DNA from: Hypomesus transpacificus
Lineage: Eukaryota > Chordata > Actinopteri > Osmeriformes > Osmeridae
DNA: 64,000 nt
Reading direction: 5' to 3'
Assembly (NCBI RefSeq): GCF_021917145.1
Contig: NW_025813792.1
Location: 1-64,000 of the forward strand
Shown here: one piece after another, positions 3,044-62,380 of the stretch
Numbering within the stretch: the first letter of the stretch is position 1
How the letters are laid out: every line of letters starts with the position of its first letter
Notes under the pieces: generated by a model
Database searches by the model: none
Seen by the model: the letters and a program-made list of their open reading frames with translations, nothing else
Told to the model about the DNA's origin: nothing
Made by a program: the position numbers and the translations under genes

Positions 3044-4708
3044 TACAGTGCCCTCCAAAAGTATTGGAACAGTGAGGCGAATTCCTTTATTTTTGCTGTA
3101 GACTGAAAACATTTGGGCTTGACATCAAATAATGAACGTGAGACCAGAGATCAACGTTTCAGCTTTTATTTCCAGGTATTTACATCAGGATCTGATGCAC
3201 AACTAAGAAAATATCACATTTTGTTTGAATCCACCCATTTGTCATGTGAGCAAAAGTATTGGAACAGATATACTTAAAACATATTTAAGTGAATAAGACT
3301 TAATATTTAGTTGCAAATCCTTTGCTTTCAATAACTGCAGCAAGTCTGTGACCCATTGACGTCACCAAACTTTTGCATTCTTCCTTTTTGATGCTTTCCC
3401 AGGCTTTCACTGCAGCCTCTTTCAGTTGTTGTTTGTTTTGTGGGGTTCCTCCCTTCAGTCTCCTCTTAAGCAGGTAAAATGCATGCTCTATAGGGTTTAA
3501 GTCTGGAGATTGACTTGGCCAGTCTAATACCTTCCATTTCTTGCCCCTGATGAACTCCTTTGTTGTTTTGGCAGTGTGTTTTGGGTCGTTATCTTGCTGC
3601 ATGATGAAGGCTCTGCCAATCAGTTTGGTTGCATCTTTCCTTAAATTGGCAGACAAAATGTTTCTGTAGACTTCCGAGGTCATTTTGCTGCTGCCATCAT
3701 GTGTTACATCCTCAATGAAGATTAATGAGCCCGTCCCAGAAGAAGCCATGCAAGCCCAAGCCATGACATTACCTCCACCGTGTTTCACAGATGAGCTTGT
3801 GTGTTTGGGATCATGAGCAGTTCCTTTCTTTCTCCAAACTTTAGCCTTTCCATCACTTTGGTAAAAGTTAATCTTTGTCTCATCAGTCCATAAAACTTTG
3901 TCCCAGAATTTTTGAGGTTCATCTCTGTACTTTTTGGCAATTTCCAGCCTGGCCTTCCTATTCTTCTTGCTAATGAGTGGTTTGCATCTTCTGGTGTAGC
4001 CCTTGTACTTTTGTTCATGAAGTCTTCTGCGAACAGTAGATAGTGATACCTTCACTCCTGCCATCTGGAGGTTGTTGCTGATCTCACTAACAGTTGTTTT
4101 AGGGTCTTTCTTTACAGCTCTCACAATGTTTCTGTCATCAACTGCTGATGTTTTCCTTGGTCTACCTGTTCGACGTCTGTTACTTAGTACACCAGTAGTT
4201 TTCTTCTTCTTCAGGACATTCCAAATGGTTGTACTGGCTATGGCCAATGTTTCTGCAATGGCTCTGATTGATTTTCCATCTTCTCTAAGACTCACAATTG
4301 CTTGTTTTTCACCCAAAGACAGCGCTCTGGTTTTCATGTTGTTTTCACCTCTGAATACAGTCTGCATAGACAAAACCTATCTTACCCAATCTGAACCTGA
4401 GTGTAGACATTCAGTGGTATTTATTGATTGAATAATGTATGTAATAGGACACACCTGGGCAACAAAACACACCTGTCAGTCACATGTTCCAATACTTTTG
4501 CTCACGTGACAAATGGGTGGGTTCGAACAAAAAGGTGATATTTTCTAATTTGTGCATCAGATCCTGATGTAAATACCTGGAAATAAAAGCTGAAACGTTG
4601 ATCTCTGGTTTCACATTCATCGTTTGATGTCAAGCCCAAATGTTTTCAGTCTACAGCAAAAATAAAGGAATTGGCCTCACTGTTCCAATACTTTTGGAGG
4701 GCACTGTA

Positions 4709-6101: not shown

Positions 6102-8872
6102 TAGACAGAGAGAGAGGGGAAGGAGGAGGGACAGAGGATGGAGAGACGAGTGATGGGCAGGCAGTGGAATACACAGGACACAGAATACAATACAATAAAA
6201 AGAGAACCTGACATACAGTACTTAAATACAAAAAGATGATAGGAAACCCCATGAAACTGGATAAACAAAAAATAAAGAAAGTGACAAAGTCCCAGTAGTA
6301 GATAGAGAGTACAGTAAATAGACAGACAGATACCTGGTGAGACTCCTCCCAGCCGTTCTCATCCCTCACTCCCAGCTTGGCCCTGTAGTAGAGCAGAGTC
6401 TCACAGCAGGAGGTGTCGCCCCCTGTCAGCAGGGCGTGGTACAGCGGGGTCAGGCCACAGCGGTCCCGGTAATCAGGTGACACTCCCATGGACAGCAGAG
6501 CCTGGACAGGGGCACAGCACGGGCCAACGCATGTGAAACCATTTGGGTTTGTTGGTGTGTGCGTCTCTGGGTTTGGGGAACAGACTGTGCAACTCTTTGT
6601 ATGTGTGTGTGTGCTTGTGTGAGTGAGAGAGTGTCGGGTAATGAATAAAACCATTTATGTCAGTTTGTCAAAGTGTGTGTGCAATATTCTAGTTGGGGGT
6701 TTGTACAGAATGTGTGTTGGTGTTTTTCTGTGTGGCTGGGATGTTGTGTTAATGCATGTGTGTACAGAATGTGTGCGTGTATGTATGTGTGTGTGTGTGT
6801 GCTTGTGTGTGTATGCTCACTGAGCGTGTCAGTGTAGGAAATAGGGTTGTGGTTACCAGCAGCCCAGCATGGTTGTGTGCTATGACAGCCTTGTGTATGG
6901 CTGTCAGTCCATCTCTGGTTCTGAAGTCCACATGGGCCCCGCCCAGAACCAGAATCCTGATGCCTTCCACAGACAGAGCCGACTGCATGGCCACAGACAG
7001 GGGACTCTCTGGAGGTTGGAGGGGGTGGAGAGACAGAGAGAGAGATAGTGAGCCACGGGATAGATATCTGTTGATAAATAGTAGGCCTGACCTCTCTACT
7101 GGGGCAGTGAGGAATGTTGTGAATGTTGGAGTCTGACCTAATGAGCCTCCCAGGCTGCTGTGGAACTCACCTCCGGTGTCAGGGTCATGGTAATTTGGGT
7201 CAAGACCCTTCTCCAGCACCTTTGAGATTTTCTCAATGGAGCCAGCCTGAATGTAATCCAGGAACTTCTTCAAGCTTGCCTATAGGGATTCATCAGAAAA
7301 CATGTTATCTTTCGTTTAGATATCTTTTTTCTCTCTCTCCATACACAGTAAGTGTTCTTTAGAATGGCAGCGCACGTGTTTACAAAATGCTGCACGATCG
7401 TTCAAAGAAAATAGTACCTTGGTGTGAAGTTTTGCAAGTAATTTTTCGTCAAGGTTTGTCTGTTTATAAACCCTGGTCTTGTACCTAAACTGAGGAACAG
7501 GAAAGACGTGCATTACTGTCAAATTCATTCTAGGTCATTGAGTTAAAAATAAACTCTTCACTCCCTCGTGACAGTTTATACCTCTGCTATGAGGGTTTCG
7601 GTTAGGTCTCTGGTATATCTGTTGATATTTATAAAACTTTGCTACCATGAAGTTAAAAATGGGCTTACGTCCTTTCAATCTTGTACAGAAATGTACATAG
7701 GAGCTCATGAAAGAAGAGCTTTAGGTTTTGAATAACTGAGTGTATATGATATATCCCAAAATGTAATATAATGGCAAAAGTGTTTGCAACATGAGACAAT
7801 TGTGTGCTTTTGAGACATGTTTGTGACATTTTGAATGCAGTGCTTCATTTTGCAAAAGAAGCGACTAATTCACATCACTCACATAACATCTTAGAATTCT
7901 TTATATATTTGGTGGCACAACCTCCATAGATAATTTAAACAGTGTGCCTTCTCTGAAACCAGTGTTCCAGTAATACTGTATAAAAGCCCCACCCATGTCA
8001 GACACATGCTGTACAACCAATACACCACCAGAGGGCGCCTTGACACCATTCAGCGTGTCAGAGCCTGCCACGCTCCTAGTAAGATGTGCAGTGTCTCTGC
8101 AAATGGAAGGAATCTATGTCATGTCACACCCATTGGCAACAAGCTCATCGAAAAAAAGACTTTCGATAAGAAGTTCATTTACAGCAACTGAAAAGAGAAC
8201 CGCTTCCAATCGTGTCAGCAAAGGACACATTTAAATCGGAAAAGCAAAATGATCATTTCCTCATTGCTTCTCTCCCACTCCGAAAACCTTGTCTCTTTGT
8301 TTCCCCCTGTTCCCTTACCTCCAGATAGGGCACCCCCTTCTCAAAGGATTGTGGGTATTCTCGGAGGGCTCGCTCCTCGTCCAGGAACTTGGCGTCCCGG
8401 CCGTCTCCCGCTGGCTGGAACAGGCCGTAGTTGTAGACGTCCCACAACGACTCGCTCAGGGTGCAGATGACCTGGTGCTTGGCGCTCCACACCATGTCAT
8501 CAGGGTCGAACTGGAGACACCTCTGACAAGGGGGGGGGGGGGGTGAGGGGGGGGTGAGGGGGGGAGGGGAGGGGGGGAGGGGGGTTGGTCAAGCCATGGG
8601 TGTTTTAAAGTGGGTACAAGTCTGTGTTTGTTTGTGTGTGCAGCAAGGGAGGTGGGGATGAAAATGTGTGCATGTGTGTGTGTGGGTGTGTGTATGTGTA
8701 TGGTTGTGGGGGGAATAAACATGGCAGGGGTGAGGTGGGGTGGGGGGAGTTGGTCTGGACTGGAGTTTATAAGGGTGTGAGTGTGTGTGTGTGCATGTGG
8801 AGAGGGAGGTGAACATGCATGTGTGTGGTTGGGGATTGAGCTTGGCGGGGGGGTGGATAGTTCAGGGTTGCA

Positions 8873-23573: not shown

Positions 23574-26482
23574 TATAAGTGTGTGAGAACAAAAAAAGCA
23601 TTGAAAGGGGGGTAAAGACCTGAAAATTAATTAAAGTGTAGAACACACAAACCATTTTTACAGTCAGTAGATATAATTTCTTGCTCAAAGCCATTGATAA
23701 AGCACAAGAAGCGAGGCAGTGGTGTGCTCTAGTGGCCAACATGGGAACTGCGAGGACAGAAGGCTTCTATTAGAGACTAAATGGTGGAAGTTTTACTTGT
23801 AACATAAAAACAGAAATTACATTTCAACAAGAATGATGAGAATCTGGTGCATTTTGGTTTGCATTTCAAGTAATGGGTGTCAATTCGCACATTGCTGGAG
23901 AACTTTGCAACAGTTTGACCACAGCTTCTAGTTTCAGAATTAGCATGAAACCACAAACCATGCGGAAACATTTGATGGCAATAATTAACCTCAACCAAGA
24001 AAGTACTGAGAACAACTCTTACACTGGCAGTGAAATGTTTCTGCAGCTACCAGAAATGATAGTTCATTCTATCTATGGTTTACAGCAAGAAATAATCCCA
24101 ATAACATTACCGTTTACATATTACATACTCCCCGACTTCCTTAAATTAAGTAATAACATGTCCATAACAGACAATGAAGAGCTGGGTGATTATGCAACAG
24201 GATTGGACACCCATCAGATTCTAAGAAGGAAGGAAATATAAGAATGGTCCCAAGAATTTGCTGTGAAACCATGACAACACAACGCCTGCCACCTTTCTTT
24301 CTGCAGACACACCCGATTGTACTGAGTAAGCCTAACACCTTTTTCTGAATTGTTCAAACCATTCCATACCAACAACTTTCTCACAGTAGCTTCGGGGCAT
24401 GATTAGTCATCACACCACAAATACATGTGTCATGTCAGACAAATGAAACCAAGTTTGGGCTTTGCATCTTATGGTCAAGAAGGAAGTGTTTGAACTGACC
24501 CATAATGTGTTCACAATTTTCGCACAGAATTCAGAGCTGAGAAAACTCAAACTACGGTACATTTAAGTTCTAATCATTTTCTTATAATTGTAACGCTTAA
24601 GGTTTATATGTACATGTTGATTTTTATAACTTGAAATATTTCTTGAGCATGCAGTCTCTTGGGTAAAATAATGATGCTTCAACAGAAAACTCTGCTGAGA
24701 AAGAGTGAAGAAAACACTGTGAAATCAGGTTTCTGTTCCAGAATTATAATTCCGTAAACAAACTGTGCTCACTGACACTAAGTGATGAGCCTCCTTGGAC
24801 ACGGGTGCTGTGATCTTGTTTGACTTCCTCAATGTCTCACTGTCCCTGAACCTCCACAGCAGCTCCTTCAAATTCAGTCTGCCCTCACATATCAATCAGC
24901 CTCAGCCCAGTCCGGACAGAGTCAGAGATGGGTGTGACAAACCAGCTCTTCTTAATACCAGGTATGCTGATTTAATCCAAAAATTGCATGCTTCTGTGCT
25001 CTCTGCTTTGTGGGTTCAATTATTATTTAGCTAATCAGCTCTTGTGACATCAGCAAACACAACACTGTCAGTTTCTAAACCAGCAAGATTGATTTGTGCA
25101 AATCACAACCAAGTGTCTCTTTTTAGGAGTAAAGGAAAGATACAGGATAGGCTAACCATGCAAAGTCAACCAAACAAGCCAGAAGGGTAGCCTACAAGAA
25201 TACAAGAGCAGAATAGAAATGAGTAAATATGAACCTCAAACAGAAGGTCCAAATATGGGAAGATAAAGGTTATTCCAGAGTAATCCGGTTTCTACTCTAT
25301 TTCTACTGTTCTCTATTTATTTCACAGAATATTACCTTATTACGGCAGTTTGAAGTTGTTACTTGATAAGATGTTGTGAAGATAACATGAAAGAATGCAG
25401 ACACGTCTGATTTGGTTTTCCATATAATTTACATTTAAGGAGAAAGGTGTAACAGGTGTCAAAAATATAAAGCACATTATTAGGACAATTACAATTACAA
25501 TTCTACAATCCCGATCATAAAAAAACTGGTGTGTTTGGAGATTCACAGTCTTCTATCACAGTCTTCGTACTGTACTGTGATATTTTGTGATCAGGTAACG
25601 AGATGGCCATGAAGAATTTGGCATTTTGGATTGTAATGATAAAGAAATGAAAAACAAAACTAACATGAGTCATACAATTATAAAAATCACATGAAAACAA
25701 AGTCTAAATTATATTTTACAGGCTATAATATATATTATCCTCATATTGAAAATTTGCCTCTATGTTCTTTGTGCGCATTAAACATAATTGAAAAGCTTTG
25801 AAGTAGGACTAAGTGACATTTGAACTAATATAGAACTTATTGGTTGGGTGGAATAGTAATTTCGTATCATTACTTTTTTTTATGAAAAAATTGAGAGGAT
25901 TTTCATAAACTATTGAACTCGCCCAAGATTAAAATATCTATTTCTGTCACAAACCGCTCTTTTTGTTGTGTTTTTAATAGTCCTTGTGCATGATTTCTGT
26001 AAGAAATATATATTTATTTGAGATTTTCTGAATTTATGTGACATTTATAATGAAAAATTAAATAACATTTGCCAAAATAGGTACATAGAATAATAAAGTA
26101 TACCTAATTGTTTCAACCACCATGCATCCCATTCAATTCAGTAAAAATAAGATTTAACCCTCTGGTCAAAGCTGCCCGGTGTATTCCTAAATACGTTTAG
26201 AACGTTGACTATGATAAGTAGGTATAAACAACAATTGACTCATGATACAATGTTGGTGAAACTTGGATAAACTCTGTATGTAGCTCTACTGTATTTACTG
26301 TTTCTAAAAACTATGGGTGGTATACATACATATGCACACATTTAAAATAAAGAAATAACCCTGATTCAAACTTCTCCATAAAGAAGCTCTCACTACGGGT
26401 TCTCTAAAGGGTTCTCTAAAGAACCTTATCTAAGTCAGATAGAACCATACAGAACTCCAAACAGCATCGGAAAGAGCTGAAA

Positions 26483-29400
26483 ATGGTTCAGTTATGTTTA
26501 GACCTTTTAATGCTTCTTCTATTCTCACAGAGAGTTCTGTGTGGCAGCCAATTTGCTGATGTTAGTGTGTGCACAGTTGCCACGGTAACCAAAGAGTTGT
26601 CTGTATTCTGACTTTTCTACAGTGCTGCTCACCCTGGTCAGGACTCAGAAACTTCAGGGTGAGGAAGTAGCACGTCAAATAACGCCATAAACACCCTGCT
26701 CTTACACGCTGTTGTTCTGTGTTTCTCTCTCCCCTCTCCCTATTTCCTATTTATTTAACCTTTAAAAGTTACTTCTCAAATACCCAGTAGATGGCAGCAT
26801 AATGTTGTTAACTGACTTACATCTCAACATTACATTTATACTTTTTAATACCCTCCCCTCCCCCATTTTCACTGTGTATTTGACTCTCCCCTTTTTAGTT
26901 TCCATGGTCCCGAATTTAAATCAAGTTTATGCCGGGGATACATTGAAGTTGACATGTAACAACAAGGGTTCTTCAGTGAAATGGTTCTTCAACAACATCC
27001 TGTCCAACAACATCCTGTCACCTGAAAAAGAATTGCAGATGACTGCAATATCTGCAAAAAACTCTGGCTCCTATCGCTGTGAGTCCAACGGACAGAGGAG
27101 TGACAACTTCAACATCTCTGTTCTGGGTAAATACAGGAGGCCTGCTTTGACTTATTCACTGAAATACTTTATGCTTAATCATCTTGATCATTCCTCAGTA
27201 AGTCCTTTAAACTGCAGGCTTGTGTTTAGGCTTGTACTTGTTTACCAAAGTACATAAATAATAACAATGTATTCCTTGTGTTTCCCCTCAACCCCTTCCT
27301 CTTTACCTTTCTCACACTCCCCACTCTCCTACCCACCCCACCCCACACTACACTCAACCCACTGAACTACCCTCCCCACACCACACCACCTCCGCCTTTT
27401 CCCCATCTCACCACACTCTTCAACCCCACCCTCACCCACTCCCCTACCCACCCCACAACCCTCACAGCCTACCTCCCTCCTTCAATTCTCTCCATCCGTT
27501 CGGGCCTACCAGTAATCCAGAGGGGCAGTTCAGTCACGCTGAATCTGGAGGTAGAAGATGGGCTTCAGGGCTGGACCTGCTGGGTGTACAAGAAGGGAGA
27601 GGTCATCAATATGAGAATGAAGAAGACTTTGATGACTGCCGACCAGACTGAGGTGGCGTTCCAGCCCTACAGACTGGAGGAAAACATGGGCCTCTACTGG
27701 TGCAGTGATCCGACCAACCAGACGAGGAGCAGCATGGTCACTCTTAGGACTTCAGGTAACACAAGATACTCTGAGGAATATACTGTATATGGAGTATAGT
27801 CCATATGTCTTTCTATATCCATACACTTTATGTACAGTGAAAAAAGGGTACAAAACAACATGAGAACAGTCCATATAAGAAAGTAGGCCTACAGCAGAAG
27901 AGGAAGAATCAGATGTGTGTAGTTCTGACAACATTTCAGTGGTCAAACCCAAGGAAGGATCTGTGTTAGGGAAAAATAACCACATCTCTGCTACCCGGGC
28001 TGGAGAACATGAATATGATCTTAAACAATAACCACAGTGCAATGACATGTGCAGTAGCATCCCTCAGTCTGCAGCTTTACGTTATTCCTAGAACGGATGG
28101 TACTGATGGAGACCCCATGGTCACCCAGGTCGGAAGATAATGTGGCCTTGGAATGCATCGTCCCAGGGGCCGAGATTGAGCGAACTCGGTTCTATAAGGA
28201 CGAAATACTGATCCAGGACGGTGACAGCACTTCCTTCCCCATCGACAGGGTGACACAAGCGGACCAGGGGTCGTACAAGTGTAAAGCCACCTACAAAGGG
28301 GTCGTCACTAGACAAACGGTCGAACACCTCTCCGAGGTTCAGGAGCTGGTTGTCATGGGTAGGCATGGTTTGCTGTGGATGAGCCTCTCCACCCCGTGTG
28401 TGTGTGTGTGCGTGCGTGCACGTGAGCCTTGTGCATGACCTGGCCATGCCAGAGTGTGTGTATTACTTCACAACCTTGACATTGAGGGAACTCTCCTCTT
28501 ATTCATTTAAATACATTGTTTTATTTCAATTCTCTTCCTTTAAATTCTCCCTTTCGTGTTTATATTTCACAGACGCCCCTCCGAGAGCATCTCTCTATAT
28601 GACCACGACCATGAGCATGTACTGTGCATGCTCCGTGTGTCCCCATAGCACCTCCTATCGTTGGTACTACCAAGAGCCTGATAAAACCCGCCTATCACGG
28701 GTACATGAAGTAACGGGTCCATCTTACAGTAATGAAATACTGCCTGGCAGATATGCATGCAGAGTTATATGGCAGGATGGACGAACATCTATGAGCAAGA
28801 TCCATGAGGGTGAGTTCCATTATGTTCAAAGGCCCTGTATTGATAAATAGTCCTGCAGTTAAGCATACTTGTAGTGGTATTAGCGGTTCGATTGATGTCA
28901 TGTATTGTCAATGTCCGTCTTACTCAAAGTTTCCGGGGAACTTAACTGGCTGATGCCGTTGGTCGTCGTGGCAGGCCTGCTTCTCTTCATAGTTGTAGTT
29001 TTCATCGCAGTCTTCAGGTGCAAAAAGAGGAATAGGCCTAATGCCGATGGTAAGTGTGCCTTCTAATTATCTACCTGAGATGTTGAATAGTACGGTAGTG
29101 GAGAAACTGGAAAGCACAATTACAATCTCTTTCCCTTCTCTACCCTTCTAGTTCATAATTCCTCTGGCTTTTACGTATCTAATCTTTTAAGCTAAATTAC
29201 TCAATGATTTTGCCCTGTGTGTTCACTCTGAGAAGCGTCTTTGAACATTTAGAAAAGTGCTTCACAAGTTTCATGTTTCATTCGTAAATGTGCTTTTGTT
29301 TTCCCAAAGGGATTTATGAAGATGTTCCGATGATGGGGGTGAAGGCGGGCGGAGAGGACGGAGGCTACGAGGAGCTAAAACGGAAACGTGACCAGGCAGA

Positions 29401-29977
29401 GTATGACACCTTGGAAGCTGTAGCTGGCGACCCAGAGTCAAAACGCGGCGCCAAGGAGAAGGTTACCTCGGTGACAGCAGCGCCCTCTAGTGAAGCAGGA
29501 GGGTATGAGCAACTCCGCCTGAAAGCAGTCGTTGACAAGGACAACGAGTACCACACCTTGAAGGCAGATGCCCAGGGTGTGAAGAAGAAGGATGGGGAAT
29601 ATGAAGCTTTGAAAGCAGAGCCAGAAAGAGAGGGGGTGTACCACACCTTGAAGGCAGATGCCCAGGGTGTGAAGAAGAAGGATGGGGAATATGAAGCTTT
29701 GAAAGCAGAGCCAGAAAGAGAGGGGGTGTACCACACCTTGAAGGCAGATGCCCAGGGTGTGAAGAAGAAGGATGGGGAATATGAAGCTTTGAAAGCAGAG
29801 CCAGAAAGAGAGGGGGTGTACCACACCTTGAAGGCAGATGCCCAGGGTGTGAAGAAGAAGGATGGGGAATATGAAGCTTTGAAAGCAGAGCCAGAAAGAG
29901 AGTGGGTGAACCATACCTTAGGGCTGGTGCAAGGGGCTGAAGGGGGGGCCGAGCTGGGGTCCCAGGTGGCCAAGTAG
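26483..29977 (+). CDS. Fc-receptor-like / CD22-like Ig-superfamily receptor with a tandem-repeat ITAM-like tail
   Basis: Probable leukocyte surface receptor signalling through tail tyrosines. Exons: a candidate signal-peptide exon from the ATG at 26483 (MVQLCLDLLMLLLF), a possible small exon 26623-26658, Ig1 26899-27126, Ig2 27468-27755, Ig3 28092-28358, Ig4 28573-28809, membrane 28930-29049 and tail 29310-29977. All exons from Ig1 on keep phase 1, as in Ig-domain genes. Cys pairs are LKLTC/YRCES (Ig1), VALEC/YKCKA (Ig3) and MYCAC/YACRV (Ig4). Ig2 lacks a Cys at the usual B-strand place and instead has WTCWVYKK. The membrane span (LMPLVVVAGLLLFIVVVFIA) has no charged residue. The 222-residue tail contains YEDV, YEEL, YDTL, YEQL and then four repeats each holding YHTL and YEAL. 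YEEL-x8-YDTL fits a canonical ITAM. Splicing of the signal region is unresolved and the exact orthologue is unknown. Confidence 0.85.
29549..29908 (+). repeat. coding 90-bp minisatellite, four copies
   Basis: Four head-to-tail 90-bp units (29549, 29639, 29729, 29819), each coding 30 residues that start YHTLKADAQG and include GEYEALKAE. By eye the first three are identical and the fourth differs at one base (Gly to Trp near its end). A fifth degenerate start (NHTLGL) has lost its tyrosine. The number of tail tyrosines therefore depends on repeat copy number. Confidence 0.97.
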
Positions 29978-30173
29978 TGAGGGTAAGCAGAGCACCAGAC
30001 CAGCGTAGCAGGCTGGATGGCATCCCAAACCATACATACCGTAACCGGCAATGGAAACATATCAAACCATTAAAGAGTCACCAGTTTAGTGAAACAACTC
30101 TTGTAATCATTCATTCAATCATTCATTTGCTTACTCCTATATGACATAGTTGTAGTTGACTCATAAACACATA

Positions 30174-30373
30174 TTTACATTTACATTTACATTTAGTCAT
30201 TTAGCAGACGCTCTTATCCAGAGCGACTTACAAAAAGTACAGGGACATTCTCCCCGAGGCAAGTAGGGTGAAGTGCCTTGCCCAAGGACACAACGTCATG
30301 TGCACCGGCCGGGAATCGAACTGGCAACCTTCAGATTACTAGCCCGATGCTCTACCCGCTCAGCCACCTGACT
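30174..30373 (-). mobile_element. tRNA-derived SINE
   Basis: Read on the minus strand it has an A-box (TGGCTGAGCGG) and B-box (GGTTGCCAGTTCGATTCC), a body containing TAAGTCGCTCTGGATAAGAG, and a TAAATG tail repeat. It probably lies in the 3' UTR of the Ig receptor. The copy at 42509-42658 is the same family. Confidence 0.85.
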
Positions 30374-47866: not shown

Positions 47867-48092
47867 ATCGGCTTTGTCCTTTTTTGTTGCCTGACATTGT
47901 CAGGCCTTCAATGTCAGATATGGTTACAAAAATCAAATGTTGCTGTTCCCAGCGTATCGTTGTATAGTTTCGTCAACTGGAAAAAAATCATAATCACGCA
48001 GCCCCCCCCTAAACCTTCAAATCTCATCTTGAACTTTATTCAAATTAAACATCTAAGGTCAGCTACATCGATTCACTCTGCACGTCCAACAG

Positions 48093-48710
48093 ATGGAGAG
48101 AGAGAAGCTGGCACTGCCCGCTGACGGTGACCTGTCTGAGATACCAGAGTCCCAACTTGGCAGCCCCTCTGCTGAGAGCTTCGAGCTCAGCTCGACAGAG
48201 CCCCCTGCCAGAGATGGGTGGGACAGTAAAATGGAGTATTTTCTAGCTCAGGTGGGCTTCAGCGTTGGTCTTGGAAACGTCTGGAGATTCCCATACCTCT
48301 GCCATCAGAATGGAGGAGCCAATTGAGCCAAGTCACTCCCTATAATGTACTGTACTGTCCCAAAGTCAACAGCAGCACTGTACTATACATCTAATATAAC
48401 TGAATAATGAGATTTCCCCGTATTCTTAAACACATTACTATTGTAATAGGAAACCATCCATAGTTTTATGATCATATGAAACCACTGGATCAGTGATATT
48501 GAGATGATGGTGTCCTTTGTCTGTTCTCCTCAGGCGACCGAGGTGACTCTGGAGTACCCAGACTGGGCCATCGTCGTCCTGTCTGGCCTCATCCTGTTTG
48601 CCATCATGCCCGTCCTGCTGGGCTACCTGCACGCCACGCTGAGGAGCAGAGCCAAGCAGCGTGCCAGAGACAGAGAGGCAGTCACCTACAGCAGGTGTGC
48701 CACGGAGTAG
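48093..48710 (+). pseudogene. inverted, internally deleted slc6a16 copy
   Basis: The segment 48093-48318 copies slc6a16 coding exon 1 (about 97% identical by eye, six differences in 226 bp) and 48534-48710 copies the last coding exon (three differences in 177 bp). Both lie on the opposite strand to the intact gene. All nine middle exons are missing. After GGAGGAG the exon-1 copy runs into CCAATTGAGCCAAGTCACTC, whose latter part matches intron 10 of the intact gene, so the splice donor is destroyed. Read-through stops after Gly-Ala-Asn, giving 77 residues with only the first membrane signature. Homology to the intact locus extends from about 47985 to 48880. No transporter can be made from it. 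Confidence 0.9.
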
Positions 48711-48949
48711 AGCCCCCCCCATGTTGCTGTGATGGACAAACAACACCATGAACAGAATGTCATGGCCAACAACAAGAATCTCCCCCCAGCCAATGAGGGA
48801 TGTCATCCCCAGACCAAGAATCTTCCCCTAGCCAATGAGGGAGAAGATCCACCCATAGAGAGGAGTTAGACAGAGCCTTTCAAGTGAAGCACCTGTAGGA
48901 TGTATCAAGACTGTATATTTGTGTAAAAATTACTTTAGGGATTGCTTGA

Positions 48950-50530: not shown

Positions 50531-51213
50531 GCACAATGTTTAAGCTGGCAAGGAAGAGGTAGGTTTAATCAACACATGTTGATAGTTGAAAACTGTTTCC
50601 AACAGTAAAGATCAAGATGTTAAGATCAGTCCTTTTAGAAAAGACACATTGATTCAAACCATCTCTTCTCAGAGAGGTACCTATGTAGGTTACAGAATTC
50701 AAACAAACACAAAAAAACTCCCATAACTAATGTCATCTTCAGTTTTTTTGTACATTGACAAATATTGTGACCCACAGTAGCTGAATAAAACAAATTAAAA
50801 TCATCTCACATCAATTGGCAAGCTAAAGATCAGAGACGTAGGCATACATTTTTTTTGCCTTGATGCATGTGTGACCGTCCAATGGCACAATTTGTATTCT
50901 CTGGTTTCTTCCTGGTTCACCATTATTTGTTCTTGATACCAAATGCTGAATAAGTGTGCAAATTCACATTTGAGGAATTTAGAATAGTTCGAATTATAGT
51001 ATCGTTTTTCTTTCTTGGCTTTTTTTCCCTTACAGAAACACAGAATCAGCAGAGCAAAGGCTCTGTCTAACTCCTCTCTATGGGTGGATCTTCTCCCTCA
51101 TTGGCTAGGGGGAAGATTCTTGGTCTGGGGATGACATCCCTCATTGGCTGGGGGGAGATTCTTGTTCTTGGCCATGACATTCTGTTCATGGTGTTTGTCC
51201 ATCACAGCAACAT

Positions 51214-51239
51214 GGGGGGGGGGGGGGGGGGGGGGGGGG
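51214..51239 (+). repeat. 26-bp G homopolymer
   Basis: Pure G run directly after the slc6a16 stop codon (a C run in the transcript). The duplicated copy has only 8 C at the same place, so this run has expanded or contracted since duplication, or is an assembly artefact. Confidence 0.95.
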
Positions 51240-51241
51240 CT

Positions 51242-54200
51242 CTACTCCATGGCACACCTGCTGTAGGTGACTGCCTCTCTGTCTCTGTCTCGCTGCTTGG
51301 CTCTGCTCCTCAGCGTGGCGTGCAGGTAGCCCAGCAGGACGGGCATGATGGCAAACAGGATGAGGCCAGACAGGACGACGATGGCCCAGTCTGGGTACTC
51401 CAGAGTCACCTCGGTCGCCTGAGGAGAACAGACAAAGGACACCATCATCTCAATATCACTGATCCAGTGGTTTCATATGATCATAAAACATTGGCTGGAT
51501 TATGGTTTCCAATTACAATAGTAATGTGTTTAAGATTACGGGGAATTCTCATTATTCAATTATATTAGATGTGCTGCTGTTGACTTTGGGACAGTACAGT
51601 ACAGTACATTATAGGGAGTGACTTGGCGCAATAAAATAAGAAATTGAGGGAAAACCAAGGTCAAACTTGAGGCCCCAAACTGAGCAGGTCTCTGTACCGT
51701 GGTGTGGTTCCAGGCGGTGTAGGTGGGCCGGCTGATGACCATGGTCACGAGGCTGGCAGCCAGAAGGCCCAGCATGGCCAGCAGGCACACATACTTCCAC
51801 AGGTACTTGTACACCACATGGGGGCGCCAGCCCAGCATCTTCTCAATGTCGTTGAGGAACCTGGAATTCACATACACACACACGAACCACAGAAAATATA
51901 TTCAAACTGTTGAAGAGGAAACCTCATACAGAAACCCTTTTGTGAATTGTTTCATGCACTTAAAAACTATTCTAAGATTATTAATGGCAAATCTTGTGAT
52001 ATTACTGTTTTCCTTCTTGATAATTTATAGAGGCACTATGCGGGTAGGACATCAATCTTGAGTGCTCACCGATCGGCTCCGTACAGCCAGGAAACACTGA
52101 ACGTCTCAAACACGACCACAATGATGAGAGGCAGGGTGGCAGAGTAATCGTCTAACATCATGACAAAGTAGTTCCCACAGCGCTGGGTGAAGACGAGGCC
52201 AAACAGGAAACCAGTCACGCAGCCGAACACTGAGGAGAAGCGTTAAACACCCAGTTACACAACTACACACACCACACCAAGATAACCAGGCACATAGAAC
52301 TACTAAAAAGACGTCCAAAAAATCAGAAAACAAATCCAAAACCTATAGTTTGGAGTTGTCTTTTCAAACTTAAGGTCGAGTTGAGCTTTGAACATGCACA
52401 CACACACATGCCCGTCCACTCGCAGTCACACACACACGTTACCTGTGAGTTTAGTCTTGTTGTTGGAAAGGGTTTTGAAGTTGTCTGTGAGGGGCGCCAG
52501 GATGCCCTCCATGGTGCCGAACATGGTGCTGAGGCCCAGGTTGAGCAACATGAGGAAGAACAGGGCCGACCAGAAGGGACTGCCTGGAAACAGAGACATG
52601 GCCTCGGTGAACGCTATGAAGGCCAGACCGGTCCCCTGCACACCCTGATGGAGGGAGAGAGAGAGACAGAGAAAGAGTACAGAGAGAGAGACCTTGACAC
52701 ATTGAAATGGGTTGTCAGAGAAGACTGGGGTGCACTGGTTAACAAATCAAGAAGTAAACCAGTGACTCGGGACACAGCTCAGAAAGAGAGTGGGGAGACA
52801 AGGGGGTTGGGGAGACAAGGGGTTGGGGAGACAAGGGGGTTGGGGAGACAAGAAAAAAAAGTAACCCTAAAATGGGGCAAAGCCCTTACCGTGCTCATCT
52901 CCTTCTCCAGGCTGCAGTCTGAGAGGTTGCCAGGAGCCTGGGCTCCGTGGGCGCTGTACCAACCAGAGTACTCCTCCAGGGACACCATCTCTGGAGCGGA
53001 CATGTTGAAGCTGGGCCACAGGCTCTCGTCCAACCCGTGCTCAGACAGCCTCCTCACATTCCTAGGTAGAAGAGCAGACAGGAGGTCTGAGTGGACGATG
53101 AGTGTGAAGGTCCAAGTTGACTTGTTGTCTAAGATGTAAGGCTGGACGAAATGGCCCAAGATGTTACCGTAATATGATTTTAAAAATTAATTTTCATGAT
53201 CGGGCCTATATATTTAATAACATGAATGCTCAGTTTACAGTTACTCGTATTCTCCAAAAGGACAGAACTCAAGAAGAAACCAGAAGGTTAATTTGTATGT
53301 TTACCATGGCTATCAACCCTACTCCCAACTGGCACAGGTTATAAATAAAGTTGGGTGGGATCATTCAGCTTGTCTTATCACTCATCAGCCAGTCCACTAC
53401 TTAAACATAGATTACCAGTTATGGTCATAAGCTCCAGTAGGGGTGTTAAATGATTACATGTGACTCGGTGGCACAAGACCCAGACAAAGCGAGAGAGCGA
53501 TTTGGAAGATATCAAAAACTTGGCCCTTCCTTGTGTAAACACGAACACACCTGGCGACACACTGCAAGGCAAACGTCTTGGCTCGGAACCCCAGCACTGC
53601 AAACACCACGAGAGAGGCCAGGACGGAGGTGAGGAAGTTGATGGCGGAGACGGTGAAGGCATCGCGGTGACAGTTGTTGTTCTTGGGGTTGTAGGAGGAG
53701 TAGGCGATGACCGAGCCGAAGCCTAGACCCAGGGCAAAAAACACCTGCGTAGCTGCCTGGCGCCACACCTGCACGTCGCCCCAGATCTTCAGCTGCAACG
53801 CCGCCACACACACACGTAAGAAGATGATGGTGCTGGGGCAGGTGGGACTCGGAGTCCATCATGTTTAGTAGCCACAATGTCCAAAATGTTATCTGCTTTT
53901 TTCAACAGCAGCTGAACTTGAGATGGTAAAGCAGTACTTAGACAGCTTCCTCATACTATACTCTATGCATCACATTGAAAATAGTTCCCTTCCATCTGTT
54001 CCCATTACTCTCTCTTTCAGTCAGGTAGAGCAGTAGTGGGTGGCGGTACCTTGGGGTAGAACATGTATTTGATGCCGTCGGTGGCTCCGTCCAATAGCAG
54101 CCCTCGGATGAGGAAGCACAGAAGCACCACGTAGGGGAACACAGAGGAGAAGTACATCACCTGGAGAGACAGCAAAACAAGCCCAAGTTAGGCAGCTATG

Positions 54201-56047
54201 TTAGCCACTGAGTCCATATTAGCCACTAAGGACCTGTGTGATCGGAGTGTGTGGTCATGCTGGGGTACAACTTTTTACGAAGTTTGTCTCTTTATACAGC
54301 TTTTATTAATAGGAATTAGGAAATAGGACAGGAGGTCCTAGGCCAATGGCAACTGTTTGAGATGGCCACATGAAGGTCATGTTAAAACACCCCAATTTCT
54401 TAAACCTGGTCATTATCTTCATGACTTAGTCAAAACAGGTCTGTGATCCTGCCTCCCACCGACACACTCACCCCACATTCCCAGAGCACAAAACCCCCCA
54501 CCACGCACGCACACACACCCCCAGACTGGGCCAAGCAGACCCAGAACAGACGGTACCTTTGCGGAGGACTTGATGCCCTTGAACATGCCCAAGCACACAA
54601 TGGTCCAGGCCCCCAGCAGACAGCAGGTAAGAACTGGGTTGAACTGGCCCGTCTCGTTGATGGAGTCCGTGGTGTCCAGAGCCTTCCGGAACCAGAAGTA
54701 TGTGGTGGGCGAGCTGGCAGCACACTCCGGCACTGGAGACAGATGAGGAACAGCAGGTTTATACAGGCTGAAGTCCTGTCAGCTTTGTCTAGATGATTCT
54801 TCAGCAGCAACCCTCAGGCTTGAAACATAAAACCTAAAACAAGCTTAATATCGGTTCTTATTCAATATATTAATTTCTGTTGAGATATATATTACTCTTT
54901 TCTATATAGATTCCCCATTGCCTCGGGCACAGATCAGGTGGCAGGGGTGTAGTAGTAACAGTAGAGGTTCAGTCAGAGATTCACCCAGCAGCAGCCTGGA
55001 TGTGCAGCGAGGGTTTACCTGTAGTGTTACCCTGCTGAGGACACTGCTCCCAGGGCAGGGGGTACTGGAAGGAGTTCCCCAGGTAGAACAGGCTCCAGCC
55101 AATGATCACATTGTAATAAAGAGCTACGAAGAAGCACACCTGAGGGGGAAAGACGGGTTGTAACAGGGTTTAGCTACAGCGCTGAATGTAAACAAATGAT
55201 GCCAGGCAGGGAAAACTACTAGACACAGTTGGTTCAGGTCTCCAACCTTGGGTTTGTTGTGTTTGAATGGGTGAGCCGTGTTTTTACGACCGTTTTCTCA
55301 GGCTGCATAAAAACAACCAATGCCTGATAACAAGGAAACGGAAGTAGCCAATCAGTGGGGCGTGTCCTACTTACCACACAGCTGGAGTAGCCAATCCCTG
55401 AGAGTTTGGGTGAGATGTGTTTCCACACCCCGATGCTGCCCTGTCTGATGGACTGGCCGGCCGCCAGCTCTAAGAAGAACAGAGGGATCCCCATGACGAC
55501 CATGAGCAGCACGTAGAGGAGGAGGAAGGCTCCTGAGAGGCGCAGGGAGATCAGGGGGAGCTGATGATTACACTCATTTGGATTAGCTCAGTGGCTGAGC
55601 ATTTGACTACAGATCGGAAGTTTGCAGGTTCAAATCCCCCTTCATCCCTCTTACCCTATACTGCTCAGGATATAAACATCTGCAAAATGATACATCCACA
55701 TAAAATCTATACATATAATGATGGAAACCCAATATGTTGTTCTTTCATGGCAGTTACATTACACATTAATTTCTCATTTAGATGATTGATAAGGATAATA
55801 TCTAGTTGAGGGTCAACTCACCTCCTCCATTCTGATGGCAGAGGTAGGGGAATCTCCAGACGTTTCCAAGACCAACGCTGAAGCCCACCTGAGCTAGAAA
55901 ATACTCCATTTTACTGTCCCACCCATCTCTGGCAGGGGGCTCTGTCGAGCTGAGCTCGAAGCTCTCAGCAGAGGGACTGCCAAGTTGGGACTCTGGTAAA
56001 TCAGACAGGTCACCGTCAGCGGGCAATGCCAGCTTCTCTCTCTCCAT
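51242..56047 (-). CDS. slc6a16: slc6a16-type sodium-dependent neurotransmitter-family transporter, complete
   Basis: Twelve-helix SLC6 transporter of the NTT4/SLC6A15/SLC6A17 branch; relatives move neutral amino acids, but the SLC6A16 substrate is unknown. Coding exons: 55822-56047, 55375-55532, 55019-55139, 54557-54732, 54050-54160, 53551-53792, 52890-53061, 52443-52644, 52070-52229, 51698-51860 and 51242-51418. They join to 635 residues without a break. TM1 carries [19 protein letters not shown] (52-70) and NGGGAFLLLY. Further signatures are [111 protein letters not shown] and [18 protein letters not shown]. The loop between TM3 and TM4 has an N-glycosylation motif (NTT). The symbol rests on family resemblance plus linkage to slc17a7, as in human. 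The start ATG directly follows a splice acceptor, so a 5' UTR exon lies upstream. Confidence 0.93.
52795..52852 (+). repeat. short minisatellite (GGGGAGACAAGGGGGTT unit)
   Basis: Three to four 18-19 bp units in slc6a16 intron 7 (between the exons at 52890 and 52644), about 40 bp past the donor. Confidence 0.9.
55580..55690 (+). mobile_element. tRNA-Cys-derived SINE fragment
   Basis: The head GATTAGCTCAGTGGCTGAGC, then ATTTGACTACAGATC and GCAGGTTCAAATCC, resembles tRNA-Cys with A- and B-boxes. The anticodon position reads ACA rather than GCA and the acceptor stem does not pair. It lies in slc6a16 intron 1, antisense to the gene. Confidence 0.65.
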
Positions 56048-56350
56048 CTGTTGGAACGTAAGAATCGAGTGAATCGGTGTAGCCTACATTATATACATCA
56101 CTCAAATAAAGATGGCAAGGTTAGAGGGGTGGTTGCGTGACTATTTTGACGTTTAATTTCAATTTGGATTGGAAATTGACATTTTTGGAGTAACACTGAC
56201 TGGCTGTGCTCCACAAAGGAACCGCTTTGTTTGACCAAGTAACGTGTGTACACCCAATTAGTGGTTCAAGCTCAGCTCGTTAGTTAAAAGACCACACTGC
56301 CCTGGCTCATAGTGAATACCAGTTATTGTTACCGAAAAGTCATTGTTGCG

Positions 56351-60991: not shown

Positions 60992-62380
60992 TCACACCTG
61001 CCTCTCCTCAAAGAGGATTTGAGCATAGACAGTTCCTGAGCAGGCTGTTTTGTTGTCTGGCAGAGGCTTGACCAACTCCAACTCTGCATAGGTCAAGCTC
61101 TCCTCCGCTATCTTTGGCTGTGGTGAAGGGGTGGGGTCGGCGCGGTGTTGGTGGGGGAGAGAGGAAATGGGAGAGGGGGAGGATAGGAGAAGAGTCACAT
61201 TCACAGCTACACCTACAGTTGTGTGTTTGTCTTTACTACTGAGGTAATACAGAGTGCTTCTAAAGTGCAGTTCATACCGACAAAGAGGTTTCTACTTCTA
61301 AAAGTTGTATTTTCTGCAACAAAGACATTCTTCTAAGGCTTTAAACATCAAGGACCAGAATTTAAAAACTCACCAGGACCACTTTTCTGGGCTGGGCCTT
61401 TAAGAGTTTGGGTTTCCTTAGTTTGTCTGCAATGGGCACTGAGAACAAGCAGACGCCGATGAAAGCAGAGCAGAGAAGGATGGCTAAAACATTTTTCCGC
61501 TGAAGTGAGGAAATCTTCTCCAGTAAAACCCAAATCACACATACAATCTCTATTCTCAATGTTTACATGTCTGTCATCCTAACGTAGTCATGATATCTTC
61601 AGTGACAGACTGAGTCACATTCAAACATAAACATTCTGACAAATCAAACATAAAGTGCTTAAAAAAAAAAGTGTAGTCTATTTCTAGTCCTTGTGTGTTT
61701 AGATAGATAGAGAGAGAGAGAGACTGTTTACCTTTTGCTGGTATCTCTGGAGGTATCTCCTGCTGTTCCCTGAGCCTCCTCTTCCTGTATCTCCTCTCTT
61801 TCTTAGGCAGAGCAGGCGACACAGAAGTCACACTGGTGACGGTCTCCCCCGAACTGGAGAGAGAGACAGAAACAGAGAGAGAGAGTGTGTGTGCATGGGG
61901 GGTGGGGGGTGGCGACTACGACAGAATTCAGACATTGATGCATACCAACTTCTAAGAGAGTAAGGTAATGCCGCTGGGTAATGCTCACCTGTTCTGAGGA
62001 CTCTTGACCAGATGGTAACGGTCTGCCAATTAAAGAACAGCACAACCCTCTTACAGTGTAATGCACATCATGTTTATGTGTCTTTGTGTCTGTGTGTGTG
62101 TGTGAGGTAGAGATAAATAGAGAGAGAGCTTGAGAGAGACAGAGGGAAAAAGAGGGAGGGAGAGAGATAGATAGATGGAGAGAAAGAGGGAGGGAGAGGG
62201 GGAGAGCAGGACAGGATGGTGTGATGCTGGTTGAAACAAACCTTTTAACCTCTGCTTCCTCTGTATGTACTGGCAGGTCACTGTCACAGTGAACATACAC
62301 ATACACACCAGCCCCACTGAGCAGATCAGGACAGCACACAGGTAGACATCTGGAGAACACACACACACACCAGATACACA

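Follow-up and report, generated by a model that had tools for sequence, protein, structure and literature searches.

Why an immune receptor should carry several immunoreceptor tyrosine-based activation motifs (ITAMs) is an open question, which earlier studies have approached by reconstituting the zeta chain or by building a synthetic chain (PMC4850346, PMC8175083). Here we describe a natural case in the delta smelt, Hypomesus transpacificus, in which a receptor gene, LOC124462930, encodes an array of tandem ITAMs within a single cytoplasmic exon. The stretch of DNA analysed, referred to as the window, comprises bases 1-64000 of a 154,219-base scaffold in a 437-Mb genome, and the gene occupies positions 24928-29977 on the + strand. 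The encoded protein is probably a self-contained activating Fc receptor (FcR)-like receptor of teleost fishes, in which the number of ITAMs evolves as a repeat expands and is homogenised. Its gene structure, family and motif array, together with the repeated change in ITAM number, can be established from sequence, and all the signalling steps proposed for it below are those that we infer.

Fc gamma RIIA (CD32A) has two immunoglobulin (Ig) domains, and CD3 zeta is an adaptor whose ectodomain is minimal. The former resembles the smelt protein as a ligand-binding chain with an ITAM of its own, and one of over-long spacing (x12; PMC6433993), although it carries a single ITAM; the latter has several ITAMs per polypeptide, six per homodimer, whose number alters potency (PMC4850346), whereas the smelt array is borne by the receptor itself. 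Human FCRL1 is similar in having two ITAM-like motifs and no immunoreceptor tyrosine-based inhibitory motif (ITIM) (PMC10562807). The fish arrays differ from human FCRL1 and FCRL5 in holding 2-10 ITAMs, and the smelt gene has different genomic neighbours; the human FCRL1 membrane span has a charged Glu, whereas the smelt span has none. Fish G6fL combines four Ig domains with its own ITAM, but this is one ITAM encoded over two exons and joined by a YxN motif (PMC3528668), whereas the smelt receptor has several ITAMs in one exon and no YxN. Xenopus FcR-like (XFL) proteins with TM2 also come close, having a span without NxxR, separate tail and transmembrane exons, and YxxL/I/V motifs, although they have one to three of these (PMC2413239) as against 12 in the smelt receptor.

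Among the matches listed in searches of the open PMC literature, no earlier account of FCRL-like receptors from fish with ITAMs in tandem was found. Fish FCRL genes are reported in PMC4016189, in passages that make no mention of such tails, nor are such arrays described for the leukocyte immune-type receptors of catfish in passages of PMC4810170 and PMC7404264. A natural series of 2 to 10 near-identical ITAMs, in which several close species are one to three apart, would supply ready-made test constructs and a means of asking if selection acts on ITAM dose. A ligand-binding chain with ten ITAMs would carry more than the zeta chain, which has three, or six per homodimer (PMC4850346).

The ITAM array of the cytoplasmic exon

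The final exon, 29310-29977, encodes 12 tyrosines, every one of them within a YxxL/V motif. The motifs begin at 29315 (YEDV), 29366, 29402 and 29504 and continue as YHTL/YEAL at 29549/29600, 29639/29690, 29729/29780 and 29819/29870, with spacings between consecutive motifs of 13, 8, 30, 11, 13, 9, 13, 9, 13, 9 and 13 residues. The last eight motifs fall in four tandem units of 90 bp. Units 1-3 are identical (90/90), and unit 4 differs by a single base (89/90) that changes Gly to Trp; Tandem Repeats Finder gives a period of 90, 4.1 copies and 98% matches, and the window's protein matches itself over an 88-aa run at the array period. Motifs, units and spacings thus reproduce what an earlier reading of this DNA, the initial annotation, had listed. 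A tail search added two ENA proteins, P0001 (139 aa) and P0002 (141 aa), which have one unit each, as does the protein of Osmerus eperlanus (P0005). The features of the array are as follows.

29549..29908 (+): four 90-bp tandem units, starting at 29549, 29639, 29729 and 29819 (alignment, Tandem Repeats Finder)
29366..29413 (+): ITAM1, YEEL-x8-YDTL, shared with P0001, P0002 (longer there by two residues) and Osmerus
29504..29560 (+): ITAM2, YEQL-x11-YHTL (motif pattern)
29600..29650 (+): ITAM3a, YEAL-x9-YHTL, border of units 1 and 2 (motif pattern)
29690..29740 (+): ITAM3b, YEAL-x9-YHTL, border of units 2 and 3 (motif pattern)
29780..29830 (+): ITAM3c, YEAL-x9-YHTL, border of units 3 and 4 (motif pattern)
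29870..29920 (+): terminal half-ITAM, YEAL-x9-NHTL, second Tyr replaced by Asn (Tyr in P0001, P0002 and Osmerus)

Five ITAMs are therefore complete (x8, x11, x9, x9, x9) at the broad range YxxL/I-x(6-12)-YxxL/I used in PMC6433993 and PMC3528668. All of them lie within the one exon, and none shows the split over two exons that PMC3528668 calls notable for classical ITAMs. The initial annotation had paired motifs both within units and across their borders; the x9 pair over the border stands as the conserved ITAM, while the x13 pair within a unit falls beyond the ITAM range and is a spacer. We adopt the register YEAL-x9-YHTL because the inner spacing is nearly constant at 9 while the spacers vary. 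The loss of the second tyrosine belonging to the last unit had escaped that annotation.

The density of motifs exceeds chance. In the tail of the one-unit relative P0001 all seven tyrosines lie in YxxL/V, a number reached in 0/20000 shuffles, and in the window's tail reduced by three of its four units all six do (0/20000 shuffles). Recent expansion, as the initial annotation proposed, is borne out by the identity of units 1-3 and by the single unit in the three nearest relatives. Three identical units would place the last homogenisation at less than ~3.2 million years ago (95%), a rough bound that assumes all 90 sites to be neutral and a teleost synonymous rate of 3.51e-9 (PMC12083275). The tail as a whole is presumably disordered.

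ITAM number across related fish proteins

Thirty-two proteins were returned as relatives, and 31 of them, including the window's own protein P0004, make up the set considered here (P0035, 25% identical over 39%, was dropped); the sample is biased towards proteins with similar tails, since scoring was confined to the 7993 candidates with the most words in common, words from the tail among them. The 29 members named to species are all fishes, and their source names include uncharacterized protein, Fc receptor-like 2, Fc receptor-like 5 and B-cell receptor CD22. All 31 share an Ig ectodomain, a span uncharged in its core and a YxxL tail. The tail usually starts with a KKR-like border (in most members) and a juxtamembrane IYEDV/M, followed usually by a first ITAM ending in YDTL and then by YEAL-x9-YHTL cassettes. 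The initial annotation had argued that a span without a charged residue would oblige the receptor to carry its own signalling motifs. There is indeed no charge in the window's span, and K/R/D/E/H occur in the core 18 residues in 0/31 proteins, where the span was defined as the 20-residue stretch of greatest hydrophobicity, a choice that itself disfavours charges; in stretches of 28 residues charges appear near the ends only.

Tail tyrosines have L/I/V at +3 in 300/354 cases, or 300/314 once the four residues adjoining the hydrophobic window are left out. By pattern, which had to be widened by a single letter to include the opening ITAM of Trachinotus, the 31 proteins hold 134 ITAMs, 2-10 per chain (2, 3, 4, 5, 6 and 10 ITAMs in 1, 9, 9, 7, 4 and 1 proteins, respectively). 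The longest array, of ten, is that of Micropterus dolomieu (P0007), with a 208-residue self-match at period 28. These numbers rest on gene models and assemblies, and P0013 is marked partial. Orthodox ITAMs are marked by an acidic residue at -3 relative to their first Tyr (PMC10562807). D/E occupies that position in 106/134 against a background of 20%, although ITAM2 of the window has Ala there. Among the 103 cassettes that remain when each protein's first ITAM is excluded, 94 have an inner spacing of exactly 9, a value that occurs in 30/31 proteins; the pattern allowed 6-12, so that 9 is one of seven permitted values, and copies inside an array are non-independent. Spacers between ITAMs, in contrast, take 11 lengths, from 8 to 35.

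The scope is thus wider than the single species of the initial annotation, and the number of ITAMs seems to have changed repeatedly across related fish proteins. On an ectodomain tree of the 31 rows, well supported at only 12/28 inner branches, at least 19 changes in ITAM number are needed. Units are more alike within proteins than between them (identity 0.80 against 0.62 for 93 units of 17 aa from 30 proteins), a difference reached in 0/300 label shuffles, which ignore relatedness. Closely related species often differ in ITAM number. Poecilia reticulata has 3 ITAMs and P. latipinna 5 (ectodomains 89% identical), Sebastes fasciatus 4 and S. umbrosus 5 (91%), and Hypomesus 5 as against 3 in Osmerus (74%), while the four Epinephelus members have 3, 4, 4 and 6 with ectodomains 84-88% identical, two of the four agreeing. 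Equal counts also occur, as in Odontesthes and Menidia with 4 each.

Nearest to the window, identity upstream of the array is 80/83 for P0001, 68/83 for P0002 and 60/77 for Osmerus. We take P0001 and P0002 to be genomic because both, set against the window's frame, seem to include the translated end of the upstream intron. P0001 looks too close to come from H. nipponensis, whose synonymous rates are 0.13 to H. transpacificus and 0.15 to Osmerus (PMC12083275). It may represent an allele of delta smelt, in which case copy number would be polymorphic, or its contig may have collapsed the repeat if built from short reads. At the right border, however, the window's Trp and Asn are replaced in P0001 by Gly and Tyr, which counts against a plain collapse of the window's allele. 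Judged from these tails, the ancestral smelt tail would most simply have had three ITAMs, with expansion to four units after the split from the P0001 lineage.

Two members of the set, P0020 (530 aa) and P0029 (480 aa), have their Ig domains, span and tail together on contigs no longer than 2363 and 2680 bases, and since these are shorter than the window's 5-kb intron-bearing gene they suggest spliced transcripts; expression of this type of receptor appears indirectly supported. A further protein, P0003 (216 aa), from the early-branching fish Paramormyrops kingsleyae and matched only weakly (E 8.7), has an Ig-like part, a span and the first ITAM only, with no cassettes, and is possibly an ancestral tail or a short gene model.

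Predicted signalling and competing explanations

In the activating receptor that we propose, clustering by a putative ligand would allow Src-family kinases to phosphorylate the YxxL tyrosines, and the phosphorylated ITAMs would dock Syk or ZAP-70 and bring about activation. More ITAM copies would bring more kinase to each receptor and give higher potency with no switch, ITAM number setting the gain. The cassette itself would be a coding repeat, its number altered by unequal exchange or slippage and its copies kept alike by the same process; because that one process both changes number and homogenises copies, ITAM number could serve as an evolvable setting. Dose may matter modestly, given that the number of zeta-chain ITAMs is reported to alter potency and maximum phosphorylation with no sign of a switch (PMC4850346), and that a synthetic receptor with four tandem FcR-gamma ITAMs is described as more potent than its one-ITAM counterpart (PMC8175083). 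Fish G6fL, reported to signal through both of its ITAM tyrosines (PMC3528668), also speaks for activation.

Several points weigh against this proposal. To the limits given above for the sampling of relatives, the choice of span, the label shuffle, the ectodomain tree and the gene models must be added the finding that tandem ITAMs were unable to replace receptor clustering (PMC8175083). The x9 spacing is longer than the orthodox x6-8, which is seen only in ITAM1 among the window's five ITAMs and in 9/134 across the 31 proteins. The Pfam ITAM model PF02189 scores 15.5 bits on the window's tail against a cut-off of 22.2; it is not listed for whole P0004 at E up to 1, and is absent among the best 25 of 56 families for a profile of 17 relatives. 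Finally, ITIM-like matches occur in 10/31 tails (13/31 with Thr allowed at -2) and a match resembling the immunoreceptor tyrosine-based switch motif (ITSM) in 1/31, although none of either kind is found in the window.

The strongest competitor, which we regard as a serious but distinctly less probable explanation, is a selectively neutral coding minisatellite in a disordered tail, where signalling comes from the first two ITAMs and the amplified copies contribute little. The tails are rich in K/E/G/D (49% over 31 tails), close species differ in number without evident pattern, and the gain from tandem ITAMs is limited in the report of PMC8175083. Tyrosines have also been lost, in the window's last copy and in that of Coregonus, where Phe replaces Tyr. 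Neutrality does not readily explain why YxxL and the x9 spacing are retained in diverged units across the 31 proteins, why the inner spacing hardly varies though spacer lengths do, or why the acidic -3 persists so widely. At the other extreme, the tail could be a coding minisatellite serving as a dial for signal gain, with a copy number that is polymorphic inside a species (one unit and four in delta smelt) and has been reset many times in teleosts under pathogen selection, a possibility that we put forward only tentatively.

An inhibitory or dual receptor is unlikely. Multiple YxxL motifs might recruit SHP-1/SHP-2, or the ITAMs might be inhibitory under weak ligation, in keeping with reports that singly phosphorylated ITAMs can inhibit (PMC6433993), with the ITIM and ITAM-like motifs combined in FCRL kin (PMC10562807) and with the ITIM-like matches in other tails. 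But none of the 12 window motifs has I/V/L/S/T at -2, and the paired spacing and acidic -3 fit an ITAM. We give slightly less weight still to an assembly or gene-model artefact, whereby the real copy number would be other than four. The array is known from one assembly, P0004 being a RefSeq protein from the same scaffold and thus no independent check on copy number, and the closest contig (P0001) has one unit; unit 4 and the right border nevertheless bear changes of their own, other species have like arrays with their own unit sequences, and the one-unit relatives fit the expected ancestor state. Least probable is a YxxPhi endocytosis array whose motifs bind AP-2 and drive uptake, not signalling: YxxL fits the YxxPhi sorting motif, but paired spacing of 9 and an acidic -3 are not known to be required for AP-2 binding.

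Gene structure, family and neighbourhood

The receptor is encoded by two signal exons, four Ig exons, one transmembrane exon and one cytoplasmic exon, with AG/GT internal junctions in phase 1. In a protein search P0004, isoform X2 of LOC124462930, was 100% identical to the joined exons with the whole query covered. The first guess of a signal exon at 26483-26564 was dropped once P0004 showed the exon at 24928-24961.

24928..24961 (+): signal-peptide exon 1 (MGVTNQLFLIP + 1 nt), in frame with GTATGC next; matches the P0004 N-terminus
26623..26658 (+): signal-peptide exon 2 (36 nt, LLTLVRTQKLQ), phase 1, AG/GT borders; peptide in P0004
26899..27126 (+): Ig domain 1, FcR/FCRL type, phase-1 exon, AG/GT; best PDB match FCRL5, E 4e-16
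27468..27755 (+): Ig domain 2, phase-1 exon, present in P0004; alone without a Pfam match
28092..28358 (+): Ig domain 3, Pfam Ig_3 E 2.3e-6, 28.4 bits, below the 30-bit cut-off
28573..28809 (+): Ig domain 4, Pfam Ig_2 E 0.006, below the cut-off; present in P0004
28930..29049 (+): transmembrane exon, span without a charged residue, then RCKKR (sequence)
29310..29977 (+): cytoplasmic exon ending in the stop codon TAG (open frame)
30069..30074 (+): ATTAAA, which we take to be a possible polyadenylation signal (read from sequence)

Domain 1, like domain 3, stays below the Ig_3 cut-off by itself (25.6 bits), and whole P0004 clears it with 59.2 bits; an NCBIfam scan of P0004 gave nothing useful. The signal peptide is encoded on two exons with coding parts of 34 + 36 bases, to be compared with the 30/21 bp of the FcR/FCRL rule, which holds for only a fraction of frog genes in the account of PMC2413239. 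Against solved chains, the profile of 17 full-length relatives matched FCRL5 best (7.8e-37, four stretches), followed by CEA (1.6e-24) and FcRI/FceRI (~1e-21), and by this measure the Ig part is nearest to FCRL5 among solved chains. A CEACAM identity, considered also because ITAM-like motifs are reported in Xenopus Ceacams (PMC5112662), was ranked below FCRL, CEA being second in the profile search with a deficit of 41 bits, although that comparison rests on four matched stretches for FCRL5 and two for CEA. G6f-like identity, suggested by four Ig domains and an own ITAM in fish, was ruled out by the lack of YxN in all 31 tails and of a split ITAM. The charged membrane residue expected of gamma-chain-coupled activating FcRs is likewise absent from the window's span.

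Near the receptor gene lie genes for SHANK, a vesicular glutamate transporter and an SLC6 protein, a neighbourhood that we take to correspond to human 19q13.3. The human FCR locus lies at 1q21-23, and because the neighbours differ from those of the human FCRL region we claim no orthology to a named FCRL gene. The receptor gene is single-copy in this genome: protein and DNA searches of the genome with the ectodomain, with the tail and with 121 bases of the tail each matched this locus alone, and no second copy was found. A genome-wide Pfam ITAM search gave two sub-threshold matches elsewhere and missed this tail itself, and is uninformative on paralogues.

Elsewhere in the window, an open frame at 60995-61291 (-) contains LTYAEL (ITIM-like) and TVYAQI (ITSM-like) in a tail frame without a Pfam match. 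A V-set-like domain, judged by eye and by a C..W..YxC pattern, lies ~6 kb further upstream on the same strand, in L011 (G000:C124:60001-70000) near 7450-7927 (-). Our guess is that the two belong to one second Ig receptor gene, perhaps one of inhibitory type close to the ITAM receptor. The beginning of an SLC6 transporter frame is present twice in opposite orientation, at 48057-48323 (+) and 55805-56083 (-; Pfam SNF for this frame), as is a second stretch, at 48441-48827 (-) and 51071-51565 (+), and the paired stretches look like an inverted duplication. RNA-family and tRNA scans gave nothing beyond the 3' element of an UnaL2 long interspersed nuclear element (LINE) at 30191-30244 (-), ~210 bases past the receptor stop codon. 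A Tc1/mariner-type transposase frame, unbroken over 358 aa and matching Pfam HTH_Tnp_Tc3_2 and DDE_3, lies at 3303-4376 (-).

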